Below, in pieces: positions 6,022-14,549 of a stretch of 64,000 nucleotides of DNA. Each line of letters starts with the position of its first letter. Position 1 is the stretch's first letter. The DNA comes from Sediminibacterium sp. Gen4. Its GTDB lineage: Bacteria > Bacteroidota > Bacteroidia > Chitinophagales > Chitinophagaceae. A model generated the notes under the pieces. The model was not told where the DNA came from. It did no database searches and saw only the letters and a list, made by a program, of their open reading frames with translations. The stretch lies in the NCBI GenBank assembly GCA_013391385.1, contig JACBFI010000005.1, positions 121,832 to 185,831 on the forward strand, read 5' to 3'. The position numbers and the translations under genes are program-made.

Positions 6022-8343
6022 TTACTTATTTGCTGTAATCACAATCTTAGTTGCGACACGTTCTTCTCCAGAATCATCTCGTATCAATACCAAATAAACG
6101 CCACTGGCTACTCTGGCGCCAAGATAATTTCTTCCATCCCAAACGGCTTGTCCGCCAAGAGAACGGGTTTGGTAAACCAGTCTTCCATTCAGTTCTGTAA
6201 TCTTTACTAACGCTTTATCTACCAAACCTCTAATAGCAATCGTGCCATTGAAACCGGGAGGAACCGGATTGGGAAATACCAATACTTTATTTTGTGTTTC
6301 AGCTGGGGTAGTAGCTGTACTTCTGAAACTGCAAAGGCCTTCTGAAGTGGCAATAAATAATTCACCGGTAACAGGATCGATGGTTAATTTTCGAACATCG
6401 TTACTGAACAACGGACTATTCTCCGCAGTAAATCGATACACTATTTTTTCTCCATTGGAAGAAAGCAGCCATAGACCATTGCGTGTGCCCACCCATTTTC
6501 TATTAGCGCCATCAACCGCCATACATTGCACTACTTCATCACGAAAAAGTAATCCGGCAAAACGATCTTGCTGAACAATGGGTTGAATGGCTTCACATCC
6601 TGCAGCAGAAAATGCAAGTTCCGGACAACGGATGATGCCTATGCCTCTGTCTGTTCCTACCCATATCGCACCATCTCTATCTTTCACGATGCTGAATACA
6701 TTGGAAGAAGGCAGGTTGCCATTACCGCTTCCTTGTCTATAATACTTCCATCTGTCATCAGCCAGATTATCAATATCGGTTCCGGGATTGAAACAAAACA
6801 AACCATTACCTTTTGGACTGATTGCCCAAACTTGATCAAGGTCATCAGTAATGAGTTGAGCGATGGCATTTTCGCTGTGTGTGAATGGAATGGAGAAAGA
6901 CCTCCAATTATTATCTCGCTTGCGTACGCTGAGATTTTGAGGTGCACCATAATTGGCTACCCAAAGTTGTTGTTTGCTATCAAAAACCAACCCACTCACA
7001 CGTGTACTGCCCGGATCACCAATAGCAGCTCTTAAACTACTATTGAATTGTTTAAAAATATTGAACTGATCGTTAGCAAAACGAACCAGTCCACCTCCAT
7101 AACTCCCTGCCCAAATGGCTTGATCACGGGGATCGATGGCTACTGTGATAAAATCTAGAACAGAATCCAATATGGGGGTATTGAAAAAACTTCTAGAACT
7201 CCATGCATTGTCTTTCAATACATAAAACCCATCTCTGTTAAACAAATAGTTCCAGGCATCATTCACGCTACCGGCCGTTGCAACTGTTAAATTACCATTG
7301 GAAGCTAATTCGCCGATGGCAACACCGGGAGGTCCATTGGGAATGAATCGATCAGTAGTATTATTGGTTCTTGATAAACCACCAAAACGATCGGCCACCC
7401 AGACCTGTCCGTTGTCTACAATAGCAGATAATGGAAATGAGATGATACCACTGGCGCCGATGGTTCTAGCGATGTTTCCATTGGTATTTAATAACAAAAC
7501 CCGAGCAGCTCCGGAGCTTGTACGTTGACAAACCGTTAATTGATTATTGGCAGCAGTGATCGAAACAATGGGCCAGTTGCTATCATGGTATAAAAGCTGC
7601 CAGTTGGTACCGTTTTGAATGAATAAAGAATCTCCTTTTTGAACAATCACATTGTTATTGGCAACAATTACATTTTTAATACTGCCTGAAGGAAGTAGAT
7701 TAGTGCCACTTACCAAAGTCCAGTTGCTGAAATTAGCGGGATTATTGACTGTAGTGCTTGCCGTTTTGAGTCCTTCTTCCGTAGCTGCGTAAAAGAAATT
7801 ATTATATAGGGTAAATCCATTCACTTTCACCTGATTACCATTATTACCAATGATCCAGGTATCTCTGATTTCTCTTCGGTTGAGATCAGTAACAATGATA
7901 CCAAGTCCGCTCGCCAAATAAGCCAGACCATTATGACAAAAAATCTGTTGGACCGATTTATCACCGGCAATGGTGCTATTGGCAATATCACGAATATTAT
8001 AAACGATGCTGCCTTTCAGTAGATCGAGATTGCTATTGTTATATGCAATCACTAGTTGATTGGTACTGGCATCCCATCCTATACAACGAATACCGATATC
8101 ATTTAGTCCGGTAACTTTTGAATAACGAGTGAGTTCATTGTTATCATCAATGGAAAATAATGCTTTGTTGGTAGCACAATACAATTGAGATCCTTTGACT
8201 ACCTGAATGGTTTGCTGGTAGTTCAGGTGTTCACGCCATTGTCCAATCGGAGGTATTTGTGCAGTGATGATATGACTCATGAGTAAATAACCCATCAGCC
8301 ATATCGCTATTCTACAAGTATATAAGCGATGTTTCATCGTCAT
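6022..8343 (-). CDS. porZ: PorZ-like two-component-regulator-propeller protein with T9SS C-terminal domain
   Basis: This 773-residue protein has a signal peptide (cleavage near ITAQ), then IGQWREHLNYQQ and a long run of beta-propeller blades with repeated IWVGT, VWAIS, LWVAN and KWVGT blade motifs, typical of two-component-regulator propellers. The C-terminus (about 690-773) is a sorting-type beta domain: FPNPVPPGFNG, VKITELNGRLVYQ, WDGRNYLGARVASGVYLV. This architecture matches PorZ, the surface component of the type IX secretion attachment complex that helps deliver anionic LPS to cargo proteins in Porphyromonas. Function here is inferred from architecture. It is divergent from the peptide cassette. 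Confidence 0.82.
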   Translation of the reverse strand: MTMKHRLYTCRIAIWLMGYLLMSHIITAQIPPIGQWREHLNYQQTIQVVKGSQLYCATNKALFSIDDNNELTRYSKVTGLNDIGIRCIGWDASTNQLVIAYNNSNLDLLKGSIVYNIRDIANSTIAGDKSVQQIFCHNGLAYLASGLGIIVTDLNRREIRDTWIIGNNGNQVKVNGFTLYNNFFYAATEEGLKTASTTVNNPANFSNWTLVSGTNLLPSGSIKNVIVANNNVIVQKGDSLFIQNGTNWQLLYHDSNWPIVSITAANNQLTVCQRTSSGAARVLLLNTNGNIARTIGASGIISFPLSAIVDNGQVWVADRFGGLSRTNNTTDRFIPNGPPGVAIGELASNGNLTVATAGSVNDAWNYLFNRDGFYVLKDNAWSSRSFFNTPILDSVLDFITVAIDPRDQAIWAGSYGGGLVRFANDQFNIFKQFNSSLRAAIGDPGSTRVSGLVFDSKQQLWVANYGAPQNLSVRKRDNNWRSFSIPFTHSENAIAQLITDDLDQVWAISPKGNGLFCFNPGTDIDNLADDRWKYYRQGSGNGNLPSSNVFSIVKDRDGAIWVGTDRGIGIIRCPELAFSAAGCEAIQPIVQQDRFAGLLFRDEVVQCMAVDGANRKWVGTRNGLWLLSSNGEKIVYRFTAENSPLFSNDVRKLTIDPVTGELFIATSEGLCSFRSTATTPAETQNKVLVFPNPVPPGFNGTIAIRGLVDKALVKITELNGRLVYQTRSLGGQAVWDGRNYLGARVASGVYLVLIRDDSGEERVATKIVITANK

Positions 8344-8420
8344 AAGTAAAGTTACAGGATAAAAATATAGGTATTTCTACGACGAAGTTTTATCATAAAA
8401 ATCAGGAGTTTTTACGGTTT

Positions 8421-8448
8421 TTGTGAAAGAGAAAGCAGTCTATTTTGG
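8421..8448 (+). promoter_or_regulatory. candidate promoter for the peptide cassette's first gene
   Basis: TTG at 8421-8423 and TATTTTGG at 8441-8448 are separated by 17 bp and lie 19 bp upstream of the ATG at 8467. The -7 element has one base less than the TAnnTTTG consensus spacing, so this is a near match. Confidence 0.4.
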
Positions 8449-8466
8449 CATTCTAAATATTACACT

Positions 8467-8700
8467 ATGTCGAGTCGAATTGCTATTGAGCAAATAAAGA
8501 AAATCAATCAGTTGATTGTGAAAAAAAATACAGGTAAGCCTGCTGAAATGGCTGTAAAACTTGATTGTTCACTCACAACACTATTTACTTACCTCGCTAT
8601 GATGAGAACGATGGGGGCACCCATTCAGTACAATAAATTTAAGCAGACTTATTACTATGAAGAGGAGGGAGATTTTGTGATTGGCTTTATTGCTAGGTAA
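8467..8700 (+). CDS. small helix-turn-helix protein
   Basis: A 77-residue protein. Residues 5-50 read as a winged-helix-type HTH: IEQIKKINQLIVKKNTGKP, then AEMAVKLDCSLTTLFTYLAM as helix-turn-recognition helix. The tail (YNKFKQTYYYEEEGDFVIGF) looks like a beta wing. It is the first plus-strand gene before two double-glycine peptides and their exporter, so it is a plausible local regulator. A 17-bp palindrome suited to a dimeric DNA-binding protein lies 55 bp downstream. I do not recognise a named family. Confidence 0.65.
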   Translation: MSSRIAIEQIKKINQLIVKKNTGKPAEMAVKLDCSLTTLFTYLAMMRTMGAPIQYNKFKQTYYYEEEGDFVIGFIAR

Positions 8701-8710
8701 AGTTTTTTTT

Positions 8711-8794
8711 ATACTCCGCAAGGCTCGTATTGAACGATAGTAGTTTAGCATCAGATTCATGGGCCATGAATGGGAGTATTGTCGGTAAGCCTTG
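8711..8794 (+). promoter_or_regulatory. structured leader region with interleaved complementary arms
   Basis: Two pairs of exact 7-nt complements are interleaved: ATACTCC (8711-8717) with GGAGTAT (8773-8779), and CAAGGCT (8719-8725) with AGCCTTG (8788-8794). The order A-B-A'-B' allows an H-type pseudoknot or two mutually exclusive hairpins in the transcript just upstream of the first peptide gene. Chance cannot be excluded for 7-nt arms. Confidence 0.35.
8755..8771. promoter_or_regulatory. 17-bp palindrome, candidate operator
   Basis: ATTCATGG (8755-8762) and CCATGAAT (8764-8771) are perfect inverted arms around one G, between the HTH gene and the first peptide gene. This is the geometry of a dimeric repressor site; in RNA it could also form a 6-bp hairpin inside the 8711/8779 stem. 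Confidence 0.45.
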
Positions 8795-8844
8795 TATCCC
8801 GCGCAGATACAGAAGAAGCGACTTTAAAAACTAAAACTGTTTTT

Positions 8845-9030
8845 ATGAACCATCAAACATTAAAACTAGAGCCCCTTTCAGATCAAGAGCTGATCAGTAT
8901 TGAAGGAGGAGCGATTCCATCCTGGTTGAAAAAGTTCGGATGGAGTGGTCTTATTATGGATGCCATAAAAAACTGGGATGAAATCAAAAGAGAGTTCAGT
9001 AGAGGATGGCATTTCGCAGATAATAAATGA
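8845..9030 (+). CDS. double-glycine leader peptide, bacteriocin-like precursor 1
   Basis: A 61-residue precursor. The 22-residue leader ends in PLSDQELISIEGG, with the hydrophobic/acidic spacing (L--LS--EL--I-GG) recognised by C39 peptidases of bacteriocin exporters. Cleavage after GG would release a 39-residue core, AIPSWLKKFG... to ...FADNK, rich in Trp, Lys and hydrophobic residues and likely to form an amphipathic helix. I chose ATG 8845 since earlier in-frame starts would add residues before an otherwise complete leader. The dedicated PCAT exporter 2 kb downstream on the same strand supports secretion. Bacteriocin, pheromone or other signal cannot be told apart from sequence. Confidence 0.75.
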   Translation: MNHQTLKLEPLSDQELISIEGGAIPSWLKKFGWSGLIMDAIKNWDEIKREFSRGWHFADNK

Positions 9031-9056
9031 TTGCTAAACCTTTAAAACAAATAATC

Positions 9057-9254
9057 ATGAAAACCAATAATCAATCAAGCATACATTCATTTGAATGTCA
9101 GTCACTGTCTTCAAAAGAGCTGGAAATAATTGAGGGTGGTGGTTTTTGGGGAGATTTATTCTACACAGTTGGTGTAACGTTTCGATGCTTTTACGAGTTT
9201 GCAAAAACTGCCGGAGAGTATCAGGCTTCATTACCACCAAGTTTGAAGAAATAA
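9057..9254 (+). CDS. double-glycine leader peptide, bacteriocin-like precursor 2
   Basis: A 65-residue precursor with a 28-residue leader ending SLSSKELEIIEGG, close to that of the first peptide. The predicted 37-residue core starts GFWGDLFYTVG, has one Cys and many aromatics, and ends PPSLKK. The core shares no obvious sequence with peptide 1, so the two may act as unlike partners, as in class IIb bacteriocins; no GxxxG motif is clear in either. ATG 9057 gives a normal leader; an earlier ATG at 9027 overlaps the previous stop (ATGA) and could support translational coupling. Confidence 0.75.
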   Translation: MKTNNQSSIHSFECQSLSSKELEIIEGGGFWGDLFYTVGVTFRCFYEFAKTAGEYQASLPPSLKK

Positions 9255-9263
9255 TCAACATGA

Positions 9264-9294
9264 GAATGACCTCATGATTCAAGTGAGGTCATTC
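9264..9294 (+). terminator. hairpin between the peptide genes and the transport genes
   Basis: Perfect 11-bp arms (9264-9274 and 9284-9294) around a 9-nt loop, just after the second peptide's stop. There is no strong U-tract after it, so it may attenuate rather than end transcription or may stabilise the peptide mRNA, giving more precursor than exporter. Confidence 0.55.
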
Positions 9295-9325
9295 ATTACA
9301 ATACATTCTCAAAACTTATTTTAGT

Positions 9326-9793
9326 ATGTCAATTGGTAAACGAGTATTGAACCTAATCGAACGGCTCACAATTTTTAAGTTGATCATTGGGGCCTATTTT
9401 ATTAATTTTTTTGTTTCGGTCTTATTTGGGTATGTATTATTCCCAGAACAAGATGCTAATCCGAATCAACTACCTGATAATATATATTTTATTGCTTCAA
9501 TCATTGTGGCACCATTTCTCGAAACTTGGCTGGTTCAATATACAATCATGGAGTATGGCTATAAATGGACAAAAAAATATGGGCCAGGGATCATAGTAAG
9601 TATTGTTGTCTTTTCAGTCTTACATCATTATTCAGTTCCTTATATGCTGAAGACATTGGTTACCGGAACTGTCTACACGTCGGTTTACTTTGTTTGTATG
9701 ATTAGAAAATGGAATGGCTTTTTATGGACATCGATGGTACACATGCTGCATAACATAACAGCGTTAATATTTAACTATTTTATTGATGGATAA
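9326..9793 (+). CDS. CPBP/Abi-type intramembrane protein, candidate immunity or processing factor
   Basis: A 155-residue protein with about four membrane segments and the three CPBP motifs in order: APFLETWLVQ (Glu66; second Glu and Arg of the classic EExxxR replaced), FSVLH (His100) and HMLHN (His139, Asn143). CPBP proteins are intramembrane metalloproteases related to Rce1; in bacteriocin clusters members often act as immunity proteins. It lies between the peptides and the exporter and its last 8 bp overlap the HlyD gene, so it belongs to the operon. Immunity is inferred from context; peptide maturation is the alternative. Confidence 0.72.
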   Translation: MSIGKRVLNLIERLTIFKLIIGAYFINFFVSVLFGYVLFPEQDANPNQLPDNIYFIASIIVAPFLETWLVQYTIMEYGYKWTKKYGPGIIVSIVVFSVLHHYSVPYMLKTLVTGTVYTSVYFVCMIRKWNGFLWTSMVHMLHNITALIFNYFIDG

Positions 9794-10964
9794 GGGAAAG
9801 GGGCCATTGCCGGAAGCCAATAATAGCATCCAATGCTATCTTGCCGAATTTTCGCCCTATAGCAAAGTCTTTTATGTATCACTGATCCTGATCGTATTCT
9901 TCGGACTTGCCATGCTGCCTTTTTGTTATGTCAACGTCATTACCCGTACCGAAGGAATCATCAGGCCCTTTCAGGAGCGAACTGTCGTTCGAAGCCTAAT
10001 GAGCGCTACCATTCAGTCTGTTCATTGTGAAGATGGAAGCACAGTTAAAAAAGGAGATACTCTGATCTTGTTTCAACAATTGAATTATACGGCACAAAAA
10101 GAATATATCACACAAAAAATCAATAATTGTACAAAGCTGATCAATGATTTAAAACTACTTACGCAACCGGATGTGTGGAAAGATTCAACGATCAATAACC
10201 GTTTGCAAACAGCAGTCTATCGCTCTCAATACCTGCATTTTTATGATCAATTACAAGAGAAAGATATACTTAATAAAAAATTACAGAAAGACATACTCCT
10301 GTATGATCCGCTACTTCGGGAGAAAGTTATAGCACCTAATGAGTTTGCTGATATCAGGTTTCAGTTACTACAAGCGTCGGCCGTTTTTCAATTGCAGATT
10401 AGCAAACAAATCAGCCAATGGCAACAGGAATTGATTGAACAACAAAAATTATTAGTGGCATACAAAACTGAAAATAGTAATCTGTTAGCGAATGCACAGT
10501 CTTATATCGTAAAAGCCCCTATAACTGGCACCGTTTTAATGCAAGAACCTTTATATACAGGTGCTGCTGTTCTCCCTTCCGGAGAACTTTTATCTATTTC
10601 TCCCGCACAAGACCTGATTGTTGAATGTTGGATATCTCCTTCAGATAGGGTGACCATTTATCATGGACAGACTATTACCTATTCGATTCCAGAAATTCGT
10701 AATCAGATGTCTACGACATTGGAGGGAAAAGTTATTTCCATAGCAGAGGATTATACACTTGTTAATAATAAGCCCTTGTTCAGGGTTAAATGTAGTTTGA
10801 ACCAAACAAGGGTTCAGTTACAAAATGGGTTTTCATATGTATTAGGTCGTGGACTTTTATTGGAGACAAGATTTCTTTTAGCTAGAAAAAGTTGTTGGGA
10901 GCTTCTTTATCAGCAATTATACGATTGGTTCAATCCTGGCACTCTTAGTCAATCCGCCGTATGA
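9786..10964 (+). CDS. HlyD-family periplasmic adaptor of a peptide exporter
   Basis: A 392-residue membrane-fusion protein: a short cytosolic N-terminus, one membrane segment (residues ~28-50), a first biotinyl-lipoyl half (RTEGIIRPFQERTVVRS ... VHCEDGSTVKKGDTL), a coiled-coil hairpin (about 95-235), a second lipoyl half (VKAPITGTVLM) and a beta-barrel region. Such adaptors link C39 ABC exporters to the outer membrane. ATG 9786 overlaps the CPBP stop; a TTG one codon earlier is the only other option. Its stop overlaps the PCAT start as ATGA (10961-10964), so the two are translationally coupled. No TolC-like outer-membrane gene is in the cassette. Confidence 0.88.
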   Translation: MDKGKGPLPEANNSIQCYLAEFSPYSKVFYVSLILIVFFGLAMLPFCYVNVITRTEGIIRPFQERTVVRSLMSATIQSVHCEDGSTVKKGDTLILFQQLNYTAQKEYITQKINNCTKLINDLKLLTQPDVWKDSTINNRLQTAVYRSQYLHFYDQLQEKDILNKKLQKDILLYDPLLREKVIAPNEFADIRFQLLQASAVFQLQISKQISQWQQELIEQQKLLVAYKTENSNLLANAQSYIVKAPITGTVLMQEPLYTGAAVLPSGELLSISPAQDLIVECWISPSDRVTIYHGQTITYSIPEIRNQMSTTLEGKVISIAEDYTLVNNKPLFRVKCSLNQTRVQLQNGFSYVLGRGLLLETRFLLARKSCWELLYQQLYDWFNPGTLSQSAV

Positions 10965-13108
10965 AGAGGAAGATAGTTTGTGTAAAGCAAAGAGATGTTA
11001 CCGATTGCGGAGCTGCCTGTTTGGTATCCATTGCCGGCAGTTATGGGTATCAGTTTTCTGTTAGTAAAATCAGACAAATAGCCGGAACAGATAAACGAGG
11101 TACCAGTATGTTGGGTATGGTGGAGGCAGCACAGAGAATGGGTTTTCAGGCTAAGGCGGTACGTGCAAATCCTGAACTGATTCGTCAGATTCCACTTCCT
11201 TCTATTGCGCATGTATTATTGGAAAATGGATTGCAACATTTTGTAGTACTCTATCGAATCAGCGAACATCAGCTCATATATATGGACCCGGGAACGGGTA
11301 CGCTGGTAAAGACAAAGCCCGATGCTTTTACTAAAATATGGAGCGGGGTACTTCTTTTACTGGAACCTTCAATAGCTGTATCTGGTTCTGCGTTTACTAT
11401 CAGCACAAAACAAAGGCTGTATCATTTACTCTACTCCAATCGATCCTTATTGTTACAAGGATTTATGGGAGCCTTGGTATATACTATTTTAGGCCTTTCA
11501 GTCAGTATTTATATCCAGAAACTAGTGGATACCGTATTTGTGGATGGTGATTTGGGACTTTTGAATCTCATCAGTATGATGATGATCTTATTGTTGTGTG
11601 TTCAACAATACACGGGTACGTTTAAAACGGTACTTGGATTACAGATTGGACAACGGATGGATGCAGCACTCATCACCCATTATCTGCGTCACCTCTTACA
11701 ACTCCCACAGTTTTTCTTTGATACCATGCGAACGGGCGAAGTGTTGAGTCGAATCAATGATGCTGTTATGATCAGGAATTTTATCAGTGATACAATTATG
11801 CAGGTAGTAGTGAATAGTTTGATCCTGCTCTGTTCTTTTTTATTGATGTTTTTTTATAGCAGTAAGTTGGCTTTATGGATGCTGGTATTATTACCACTTT
11901 ATTCGGCACTCTATTTTCTGAGTAATAAAATCAACAAGTATTGGCAAAGAAAATTAATGGAAAGAAGTGCTGCCATGGAAACAGAACTGGTGGGTACTTT
12001 ACAAGCATCAGCTACCATCAAGCGTTTTGGACTGGAACATGTAATGATGGAAAAAAATGAGATGCAACTCATTGGTTTATTACGTACCCTGTATGCTACC
12101 GCTACTAGAAATATTGCAGTTTCCTCTGTTGCAGAATTTTTGACAAAACTTTTTACCCTCTTCATTTTATGGATAGGCTCAATATTAGTGATCGAGCGAA
12201 CACTTACACCTGGTACTTTGCTGTCTTTTTATAGTATTATCGGGTATTTTACCGGTCCTGTTTTGGTATTGATAGGAAGTACCAAAAGTTTTCAGGAAGC
12301 CATGATTGCAGCAGATCGCCTTTTTGAGATCATGGAATTAGAAACAGAAGAAGCTGCTCAGATCGGTCGTTATCAATGCGCTTTTAAAGTGGGTACAATT
12401 GTATTTGATAGAGTCAGCTTTCGATATGGTAGCAGACAAACAGTTTTTACTGATTTGTCTTTTCAGATCAACCCGGGAGCTTGTATTGGGATAGCTGGTG
12501 AAAGTGGATCAGGAAAATCTACTTTATTGCATCTTTTATTACGCTTTTATCCATTGCAAAATGGACAAATACGCATTGGAGAAACCGATATCAGTGATGT
12601 AAGTCTCACAGAATTAAGAGAAAAAATTGCCATAGTTCCACAAGAGACGGATATACTCTCAGGTACTATTCTTGAAAATATCTGTTTGAATACAGCTGTT
12701 GATATGGATAACGTAATAAAACTTTGTCAGCAAGTGGGATTAGATCATTTCATTCGTAGCTTACCGGAAGGGTATCATACCGTATTACAGGAGCAGGGGA
12801 CAAACTTATCTGGCGGACAAAAACAGAAAATTGGTATTGTACGTGCATTGTACCGGCAACCATCTATATTATTATTAGATGAAGCCACGGCTTCATTAGA
12901 TACCATCAGTGAATCTGTAGTGCAAGAATGTTTGCAATACCATCGTCGAAAGGGTATAACAATCATTCTTGTAGCACATAGGTTAACAACACTTAGGTTC
13001 TGTGACGAAATACTGGTATTGCAACAAGGTAAATTAATGGAAAGAGGTTCACATGAATACCTGATACAAAAGAAAAGCCTGTATGCTACTATGTGGAATC
13101 AACGGTAA
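10961..13108 (+). CDS. peptidase-containing ABC transporter (C39, double-glycine peptide exporter)
   Basis: This 715-residue exporter has all three parts of a PCAT. Residues 1-135 are a C39 cysteine protease with Gln10, catalytic Cys16 (TDCGAACL), His93 (LQHFVVLY) and Asp109 (MDPGTG). A six-helix ABC exporter membrane domain spans about 150-440. The nucleotide-binding domain has Walker A GESGSGKST near 512-520, signature LSGGQKQK near 616 and ILLLDEATASLD near 636-647. It should cleave the GG leaders of the two upstream peptides and export the cores with the HlyD partner. No catalytic residue appears lost. Its stop is only 3 bp from the convergent response-regulator stop. Confidence 0.93.
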   Translation: MKRKIVCVKQRDVTDCGAACLVSIAGSYGYQFSVSKIRQIAGTDKRGTSMLGMVEAAQRMGFQAKAVRANPELIRQIPLPSIAHVLLENGLQHFVVLYRISEHQLIYMDPGTGTLVKTKPDAFTKIWSGVLLLLEPSIAVSGSAFTISTKQRLYHLLYSNRSLLLQGFMGALVYTILGLSVSIYIQKLVDTVFVDGDLGLLNLISMMMILLLCVQQYTGTFKTVLGLQIGQRMDAALITHYLRHLLQLPQFFFDTMRTGEVLSRINDAVMIRNFISDTIMQVVVNSLILLCSFLLMFFYSSKLALWMLVLLPLYSALYFLSNKINKYWQRKLMERSAAMETELVGTLQASATIKRFGLEHVMMEKNEMQLIGLLRTLYATATRNIAVSSVAEFLTKLFTLFILWIGSILVIERTLTPGTLLSFYSIIGYFTGPVLVLIGSTKSFQEAMIAADRLFEIMELETEEAAQIGRYQCAFKVGTIVFDRVSFRYGSRQTVFTDLSFQINPGACIGIAGESGSGKSTLLHLLLRFYPLQNGQIRIGETDISDVSLTELREKIAIVPQETDILSGTILENICLNTAVDMDNVIKLCQQVGLDHFIRSLPEGYHTVLQEQGTNLSGGQKQKIGIVRALYRQPSILLLDEATASLDTISESVVQECLQYHRRKGITIILVAHRLTTLRFCDEILVLQQGKLMERGSHEYLIQKKSLYATMWNQR

Positions 13109-13111
13109 CGC

Positions 13112-13762
13112 TTACACGCTCACAATTCCATGTTTAATCGCAAAAATGGCTAGTCCAACCCTTGTTTTGATATCTAATTTTTTGAACAGATTATCGCGAT
13201 AGGTATCGACAGTACGTGGACTGATATGCATTTCTTCAGCGATCTCTTTATAGGTTTTATCGGAGCAGATCCATTGTAAGAAAATGGTTTCATTCTCTGT
13301 AAGGCTGCTGAGTGGAGAGCCATCACCGAGGAAGGAGTCTTCATTGCTGATATAGTGCATGAGTTTATCACTCACTAATTCATTGATGAAATAACCGGTA
13401 TCGCGGATATTTTCGAGGGCTTGTTTGAAGACTTTGGGTTTACTGTCTTTAAGTAAATAACCGCGGGCACCGTTTTTCAGCATGCGGATGATAGCAATAT
13501 CATTTTCCAACATACTTAATACCAATACCCTGGTTTCGGGCATATTGGCTTTGATCCATTCAGCGGTTTCAAAGCCATCCATCAATGGCATATTGATATC
13601 CAATAAAACTATCGCTGGTGGCTTGTTGTTTTTCAACGCCTCCATGAATTCCTTACCGTTACCGGCTTCCATAATTACTTTGAAGCCTTCAAATGAATTG
13701 ATCATTGAAGCGAGACCGCTACGAAGTAATTCATGATCGTCCACAAGTGCTACAAAGGTCAT
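13112..13762 (-). CDS. NarL/FixJ-family response regulator
   Basis: A 216-residue regulator with an N-terminal receiver domain (acidic pair Asp8/Asp9, phospho-acceptor Asp55 in LLDINMP, conserved Lys in YLLKDSKP) and a C-terminal LuxR-type HTH (LTENETIFLQWICSDKTYKE, then ISPRTVDTYRDNLFKKL). ATG 13762 starts directly at the receiver fold (MTFVALVDDHE); the longer frame to 13819 would run into the kinase gene. It follows the kinase by 7 bp in the same transcript and is the obvious partner. Targets are unknown. Confidence 0.92.
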   Translation of the reverse strand: MTFVALVDDHELLRSGLASMINSFEGFKVIMEAGNGKEFMEALKNNKPPAIVLLDINMPLMDGFETAEWIKANMPETRVLVLSMLENDIAIIRMLKNGARGYLLKDSKPKVFKQALENIRDTGYFINELVSDKLMHYISNEDSFLGDGSPLSSLTENETIFLQWICSDKTYKEIAEEMHISPRTVDTYRDNLFKKLDIKTRVGLAIFAIKHGIVSV

Positions 13763-13769
13763 ACAAAGG

Positions 13770-14549
13770 TTATTTCGATTTCGCCTGCAATATAATGGCT
13801 GTTCCGTTTCCCGGCTCACTTTTTATATCAACAGTGGCATGAATCATTTTTGCCCTGTTAAATATATTCTGTAAACCGATACCCGGTCCGGCAGTTTTAA
13901 ATTTTTCCATGTCAAATCCAATCCCATTATCCGTTATAATCAGCTGAACTTCATTCTCATTGCCCTCTATTTTTACAGATATTTGGTCAGCCTTGGCATG
14001 TTTCATGATATTATTGATGATTTCCTGAACCATTCTAAACATGATAAGGTCTGTATTCTTATCAATACCCGTGAAATTCTCCGCTACTGAAAGATCTGTT
14101 TTATATCGACCACTCTTCTGTAAATTATTCAAAAGTTGTCTGATAGACTCCACAATTCCTATATCCTGTATCCTATTCGTTTGTAAACTATGGCTCAGGT
14201 CGCGTAAGTCTTTAATAGCCTTTCCTAAAAGTTCATCCGTATGTTCCAGTTTCTCGTGCTCTTCAATATTCGTAAAGGTACTTAAGTTCAGTCTGACCAG
14301 ACTTAATACCTGTCCAATATTATCGTGAATTTCTCTACTGATATGGCTAAAAGTTTGCTCCTGGATCTCTAGTTGTGATTTAAGGATGGTCTGTTCAAAT
14401 CTGTTTTTCATCTCATCTCTTTCTTGTTGAAATTTTCTCTGGCGCCTCAGGAATACGAATACAATCAGGAGCAAGAAAAACCCGATCAGTACTAGAAATA
14501 CAGAAGCTATAACGATGGTGATGAGGATGTCTTCCTGTTGTTTCGGCAT
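13770..14549 (-). CDS. HisKA_3-type sensor histidine kinase without an extracellular sensor domain
   Basis: A 259-residue kinase: one N-terminal membrane helix (about 8-35), a coiled-coil linker, the HisKA_3 dimerisation box SREIHDNIGQVLSL with His75, and an HATPase_c domain with EIINNIMKHA, TDNGIGF and GPGIGLQNIFNRA. It has no periplasmic or PAS sensor region, so signal sensing may come from the polytopic membrane protein whose gene overlaps its start by 43 bp. It should phosphorylate the regulator 7 bp downstream. Confidence 0.9.
   Translation of the reverse strand: MPKQQEDILITIVIASVFLVLIGFFLLLIVFVFLRRQRKFQQERDEMKNRFEQTILKSQLEIQEQTFSHISREIHDNIGQVLSLVRLNLSTFTNIEEHEKLEHTDELLGKAIKDLRDLSHSLQTNRIQDIGIVESIRQLLNNLQKSGRYKTDLSVAENFTGIDKNTDLIMFRMVQEIINNIMKHAKADQISVKIEGNENEVQLIITDNGIGFDMEKFKTAGPGIGLQNIFNRAKMIHATVDIKSEPGNGTAIILQAKSK

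Follow-up and report, generated by a model that had tools for sequence, protein, structure and literature searches.

A relocatable two-peptide double-glycine cassette with its own C39 exporter in Sediminibacterium, a probable class IIb-like bacteriocin system

In Sediminibacterium sp. Gen4, a freshwater member of the Bacteroidota (family Chitinophagaceae), a 64,000-nucleotide stretch of contig JACBFI010000005.1 (hereafter the window) carries a compact cassette in which two short precursors with double-glycine (GG) leaders, pepA and pepB, are followed by genes for a CPBP membrane protein, an HlyD-type adaptor, and an exporter joining a C39 peptidase to an ATP-binding cassette (ABC) transporter. 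An earlier note on this DNA had described these genes in this order, with an intact exporter, overlapping reading frames, and a small helix-turn-helix (HTH) gene ahead of the peptides. All of them are present on the plus strand, arranged as follows.

8467..8700, plus strand: small winged-HTH protein of 77 residues, candidate regulator
8753..8834, unstranded: conserved noncoding block with an inverted repeat, candidate operator or leader
8845..9030, plus strand: pepA, GG-leader precursor of 61 residues (leader 22; core 39 residues, 8911-9027)
9057..9254, plus strand: pepB, GG-leader precursor of 65 residues (leader 28; core 37 residues, 9141-9251)
9264..9294, plus strand: hairpin after pepB with a 12-bp stem, candidate partial terminator or mRNA-end stabilizer
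9326..9793, plus strand: CPBP membrane protein (PF02517) with ETxxxQ replacing EExxxR, candidate immunity protein
9786..10964, plus strand: HlyD-type adaptor (PF13437 above cutoff; start corrected)
10961..13108, plus strand: C39 peptidase-ABC exporter (PF03412, PF00664, and PF00005 above cutoff)

The frames overlap by 8 bp between the CPBP and HlyD genes, once the HlyD start is corrected to its earliest ATG at 9786, and by 4 bp between the HlyD and C39 genes. Alternative in-frame ATGs lie upstream of pepA (8770) and pepB (9027); the starts at 8845 and 9057 are preferred because relatives support both, and a coding extension of pepA from 8770 was rejected on account of a 4-base insertion within it in one relative (L056; L and G numbers are our labels for loci and genomes). 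From the HTH gene through the C39 gene, the window holds no modification-enzyme gene and no oxidoreductase gene. A foreign base composition is uninformative as a sign, the GC content being 38.0% in the cassette and 38.9% in the window.

Conservation and purifying selection are seen for both peptides. Against the nearest relative (L054), the ratio of nonsynonymous to synonymous substitution rates (dN/dS) is 0.07 for pepA and 0.21 for pepB, alongside 0.06 for the HTH gene, 0.07 for CPBP, 0.16 for HlyD, 0.12 for C39, and 0.01, 0.03, and 0.06 for the flanking luxR, histidine kinase (HK), and porZ genes. Because of these low ratios, and because the two precursors are found repeatedly upstream of this exporter, the peptide frames are not chance frames; the conservation in relatives on which the earlier note had made its proposal depend is indeed found. 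So is the gene order that it had suggested seeking in other Chitinophagaceae: reading locus by locus, we recovered a complete A+B pair followed by CPBP, HlyD, and C39 genes in 13 loci from two genera (the window, L054, L034, L056, L035, L036, L037, L039, L041, L048, L051, L058, and, in the other genus, L151).

Exporter homologues of at least 46% identity occur in 19 of 150 genomes of relatives, including the window's own, all from the same genus among the matches listed. Two of these loci end at contig edges (G090 and G015); in 14 of the 17 assessable ones, at least two tandem GG precursors precede the HlyD gene, the remaining three having a single GG precursor (G010 and G027) or none (G033, where a pair lies on another contig). 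At an E value of 0.01, a peptide-B profile matched 14 of the 150 relatives and, in the family sample, 17 of 294 genomes, several of the family matches being partial; at 1e-4, it matched 7 of 395 phylum genomes. Since the five matches in the phylum sample that fall outside the family stop by profile position 50 of 65, covering the leader and the early core, complete peptide B is confined to the family in the samples searched. In G157 (L156, 7575-8681), where an exporter of this clade survives as its C-terminal part alone, a nearby match to the pepB tail points to what is apparently a decayed cassette.

The exporter clade does not always serve A/B pairs, an idea that we rejected since 36 of 55 usable exporter loci are without an A- or B-type core (56 were collected; L173 was dropped because it has no upstream sequence). 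These 55 loci allowed us to ask what the CPBP gene follows: it is found in 17 of the 19 loci having A- or B-type cores and in 4 of the 36 lacking them (Fisher p 1.2e-8, indicative only, since the loci are related and rows used for profile building are among those counted). The CPBP protein therefore tracks the peptides, not the exporter. The four CPBP loci without such cores (L044, L047, L049, and L159) carry other GG peptides, and in L157 and L158 short open reading frames with a hydrophobic stretch occupy the CPBP slot. L155 consists of an A/B-shaped GG pair and then a CPBP gene (PF02517, 39.9 bits; 52% identical to that of L040), with no exporter within the 16 kb read; the genome does have an exporter of the clade, next to different GG peptides, at a distance of about 60 kb (L161). 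The window's CPBP protein scores 32.2 bits against PF02517 (cutoff, 22.4) and has the motifs ETxxxQ, FxxxH, and HxxxN, the second Glu being replaced by Thr and the Arg by Gln; residues E66, H100, H139, and N143 are invariant in 10 of 10 members. The motif residues and the linkage to the peptide genes are those expected of a CPBP/Abi self-immunity protein. Since CPBP proteins encoded next to bacteriocins have been assigned processing and reception as well as immunity (PMC9298176, seen in part), immunity is the likeliest reading of this linkage, one among several. In separate observations on the exporter clade, tandem GG precursors whose cores open with a hydrophobic stretch ending like a lipobox (..PLLIIGA..LLAGC) lie ahead of exporters of this clade in L038 (5271-5774), L161, and L162, an odd combination of GG leader and apparent lipidation signal.

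C39 exporters cleave leaders after the GG and export the core. The best solved relative of the cassette's exporter is the bacteriocin transporter 4ry2 (E 1.6e-149), which we take to be PCAT1, and its C39 domain aligns with that structure over the CGAAC, HFVV, and DPG segments, which hold the catalytic Cys, His, and Asp; the domain is intact. Elsewhere in the same genome (G000:C2:40076-47758, another contig), two more C39-domain proteins are encoded, one a 761-residue frame 32% identical to the cassette exporter, and other GG-type substrates may exist.

The two cores are unlike each other, charged, and rich in Trp and Tyr, with no Cys in A and one in B of the window; window-type pairs follow the patterns NW..IKKG...GWN (peptide A) and F.K.A.EYQ.SLPP.LKK (peptide B). 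The monoisotopic masses calculated for the window's two unmodified cores are 4676.39 and 4223.09 Da. The remark in the earlier note that a clear GxxxG is lacking holds for the window's two cores and fails for the family: GxxxG[W/Y] is present in 17 of 21 collected A cores, being missing from the window clade and L160, so that its absence from A sets the clade of the window apart. B cores carry GxxxG in 4 of 19 cases. The same note had found the cores unlike any known class II family, and this stands for the libraries searched, the cores alone giving no NCBIfam match in 8 of 8 cases. With leaders attached, the pepB family gives matches to Bacteriocin_IIc in 4 of 10 members (best E 2.6e-4) and to BlpC, below cutoff, in 6 of 10, and there are several sub-cutoff matches to BlpC or lactococcin G models; core homology to lactococcin G was rejected, since the match is leader driven and lost with cores alone, and no sequence match ties the cassette to a described class IIb family. 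No relatives of solved structure were found for peptide B, and chance-level ones only for peptide A.

The cassette lies between a gene of the type IX secretion system and a pair of regulatory genes, which we place outside the system.

6022..8343, minus strand: porZ, encoding PorZ of the type IX secretion system (PF21544, E 8.6e-34)
13112..14549, minus strand: genes for a LuxR-type response regulator and an HK

Ten of the 35 listed places in relatives with this porZ-luxR site were fetched. In 7 of them luxR and porZ adjoin without an insert, and in the other three the gene between them reads like a response-regulator receiver. The site is likewise uninterrupted in G011, which has the cassette elsewhere in its genome, and no porZ, luxR/HK, or HTH match was found in the stretches read around the cassettes of seven other species, L035, L036, L037, L039, L041, L048, and L051. 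Since the insert is missing at 7 of 10 sites and the cassette occurs elsewhere in other species, it is a relocatable accessory module. The window's peptides and its CPBP, HlyD, and C39 proteins share 62 to 79% identity with their L034 counterparts (the peptides 62 to 72%), versus 91% for HTH, 85% for PorZ, 95% for HK, and 99% for LuxR; the cassette, less conserved than its flanks, therefore evolves faster than its neighbors.

These results bear on whether the peptides could instead be secreted as a pair of pheromones that a surface kinase detects, the response then running through the HTH protein or the neighboring HK/LuxR pair. The full-length pepB product lies just above the Pfam ComC cutoff (20.9 versus 20.4 bits, over residues 5 to 35, mostly leader), which together with the BlpC matches, the HTH gene ahead of the pair, and the adjoining HK/LuxR genes would suit such a role. 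However, the ComC and BlpC matches disappear with cores alone, the cassette has no kinase or receptor gene, and the companion that it keeps is the CPBP gene. The HK/LuxR pair also stands at sites without the cassette, for which reason we rejected it as part of the system, and its 95 to 99% identity between the window and L034 differs from the 62 to 72% of the peptides. A pheromone function is thus unlikely. The earlier note had left the choice between a two-component bacteriocin and a peptide signal: conservation, linkage, and joint relocation give good support to a cassette dedicated to the export of two peptides, whereas the signaling half of that proposal loses ground because no receptor or sensor travels with the cassette, and a bacteriocin is favored.

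One species offers a view of the pair after loss of a partner. By reading of the sequence, pepA of G010 is an eight-codon remnant, and its pepB, set against the L056 version, has 13 changes in the 37 core residues and 1 in the 28 leader residues (p 0.002), while the two exporters are 96.9% identical. This divergence would fit relaxed constraint after partner loss, although a recombined core would look alike. It touches on a further explanation, namely, that A and B are two independent single-peptide bacteriocins sharing one exporter, without synergy. The dissimilarity of the cores, the presence of B without A in G010 and L152, and the single GG precursor of G027 would all agree with independence; the adjacency of A and B with one CPBP gene in 13 loci and the divergence of the G010 B core after A was lost argue for a joint function, and we consider independence rather improbable.

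Expression of the cassette may be controlled ahead of pepA. All five cassettes at the porZ-luxR site share a conserved stretch of roughly 80 bp between the HTH gene and pepA, which includes the inverted repeat ATTCATGG-G-CCATGAAT (8755-8771); the block is still conserved in the two of these five whose HTH protein is only about 40% identical, and exact copies of a 20-bp part of it occur, among 96 loci, in porZ-site cassettes only. It matches no Rfam family, the sole Rfam match over 8300-9400 being at chance level and elsewhere. A structured leader RNA was rejected, as 72 of 200 shuffles fold as well and Rfam gives no support, and so was a regulon spanning the genome: exact matches in the 150 genomes number three, all of them porZ-site cassettes, and the other 18 places have two mismatches each, with 21 in a reversed control. 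We therefore keep the block as a candidate DNA-level operator or leader. The HTH protein, which matches PF08279 (HTH_11) below cutoff (E 0.0089), may control the peptide operon. Its strong homologues (E below 1e-13) occupy nine places: three are cassettes, three (L139, L142, and one of the two in L141) have GG-peptide or C39 genes as neighbors, and three (L138, L140, and the second in L141) do not. Among these, L139 (4597-7011) lines up genes for a C39-VKOR-thioredoxin-like protein, for an HTH homologue, and for a GG precursor rich in Cys, a further GG-peptide system with the same kind of HTH protein. The homologues at L141 (1449-1772, minus strand) and L142 (6984-7355, plus strand) show a GG-leader-like segment in their C-terminal part (..DELKRIKGG.. 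and ..KDEYNKTLGG..), as though an export signal had been joined to the regulator.

A stem-loop lies directly 3' of pepB in 13 of 13 loci, with differing sequences. None of 200 shuffles folds as well as the window's hairpin, and at most 2 of 200 do so in 12 of the 13 loci, the exception being L056 (44 of 200). It may act as a partial terminator or mRNA-end stabilizer.

Taken together, the cassette is probably a relocatable two-peptide bacteriocin system resembling class IIb, with the CPBP protein as putative immunity protein; from its gene content and comparison with relatives, we infer activity, synergy, and immunity alike. In the mechanism that we propose, the HTH protein would control a promoter in the conserved block, and pepA and pepB would be carried on one transcript. 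The hairpin would pass only part of transcription, or of stable mRNA, into the CPBP, HlyD, and C39 genes, and with such partial read-through the peptides would outnumber the export parts. As known C39 chemistry suggests, the C39 domain would cut both leaders after the GG, and the ABC exporter, the HlyD adaptor, and a chromosomal outer membrane channel would release the 39- and 37-residue cores. The two cores would then jointly target the envelope of closely related bacteria, with the CPBP protein in the inner membrane protecting the producer.

Several observations weigh against this scheme. Both window cores and most B cores are without GxxxG, the cores alone matched no bacteriocin model, and the AlphaFold models, in which both cores are helical, are of low confidence (mean pLDDT about 60). 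In G010, pepB is the only peptide left beside the exporter and CPBP, and G027 has its single precursor; L152 and L153 have B-type peptides (L153 also an A-type one) without CPBP, and CPBP proteins may, according to the part of PMC9298176 that we cite, process peptides or be receptors. Finally, the HTH gene stands alone at the site in G072, 26 bp separating its stop from luxR, and is absent from the cassettes at other sites.

Among the closest described designs are class IIb bacteriocins of the lactococcin G/plantaricin kind, which share with the cassette adjacent, unlike GG precursors, a dedicated C39 exporter, one immunity protein (here a candidate), and GxxxG (here in most A cores); GxxxG or GxxxG-like motifs are described for class IIb cores in PMC5380434 (partial text). 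The cassette, too, has two different adjacent GG-leader peptides, unmodified judging from its gene content, and its own C39-ABC exporter. It differs in having no core-level NCBIfam match, a Gram-negative producer, and an HlyD adaptor, and, unlike the Gram-positive class IIb systems, is found in Bacteroidota only in the samples searched.

Among Gram-negative bacteria, CdzC/CdzD of Caulobacter crescentus is a contact-dependent two-peptide bacteriocin that, in the available part of PMC5380434, has two short leader precursors for type I secretion, an ABC exporter and HlyD-type adaptor without a TolC gene in the cluster, horizontal acquisition, and a membrane immunity protein, all as in the cassette (with CPBP as the candidate). 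Unlike Cdz as presented there, the cassette has charged, Trp/Tyr-rich cores with at most one GxxxG in A, one direction of transcription, and a multipass CPBP protein; the glycine zipper GxxxGxxxG is not seen in the window cores, which are without GxxxG. The same source places CdzC/D on the producer surface, and GG-leader export alone leaves function unspecified, so that a surface-attached pair serving adhesion or self-recognition may be envisaged. The patchy, relocatable distribution, with a slot between peptides and exporter whose content can be swapped, resembles instead an arrangement of toxin and immunity, and we regard such a nontoxic role as very improbable.

Bacteroidetocins share with the cassette a Bacteroidota host, a GG leader, and a C39-ABC exporter; as described in the part of PMC6671954 consulted, they are single peptides with at least two Cys, accompanied by a 5-transmembrane protein and usually a thiol oxidoreductase, and no immunity protein was identified for them. 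The cassette has instead two peptides with too few Cys (none in A, one in B), CPBP and HlyD genes, and no oxidoreductase gene from HTH through C39. SilX of Streptococcus anginosus is, like the window's protein, a CPBP protein in a bacteriocin locus with Gln for the Arg of EExxxR; according to the excerpt of PMC9298176, its EE is retained, its role lies in production through the SilCR signal, and it conferred no immunity, whereas the cassette has ETxxxQ and no signal peptide system.

Our literature searches found no paper joining Chitinophagaceae with double-glycine or with bacteriocin, ABC transporter, or leader peptide. A Sediminibacterium genome paper, in the portion seen, states that the organism may give protection by making bacteriocin (PMC9258536). 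An atlas of class II bacteriocins reports, in its preview, candidates in Bacteroidota (PMC12648078); these precursors may therefore already be entered in a catalogue of that kind, uncharacterized. New here are the conserved block of about 80 bp, the hairpin after pepB, the tracking of the peptides by CPBP, and one species with pepA loss and a diverged pepB core.

More tentatively, the pairs may form an obligate two-peptide bacteriocin family of Bacteroidota, in which charged, Trp/Tyr-rich, unmodified peptides are made by and aimed at Gram-negative relatives, the variant ETxxxQ CPBP protein gives pair-specific immunity, and the cassette moves between chromosomal sites, with a small HTH protein acting at the conserved inverted repeat at the porZ site. 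The peptide bacteriocins of Bacteroidota described in the sources cited, the bacteroidetocins, are single, and the Gram-negative two-peptide Cdz system is built on glycine zippers. If our interpretation is true, the cassette would represent a Gram-negative two-peptide design of another kind than Cdz. With a defined insertion site, naturally empty sites whose hosts might serve as test strains, and a species that has naturally lost one of the peptides, synergy could be tested directly, and the same features, in a genus with cultured species, would make CPBP immunity and the crossing of the outer membrane testable.

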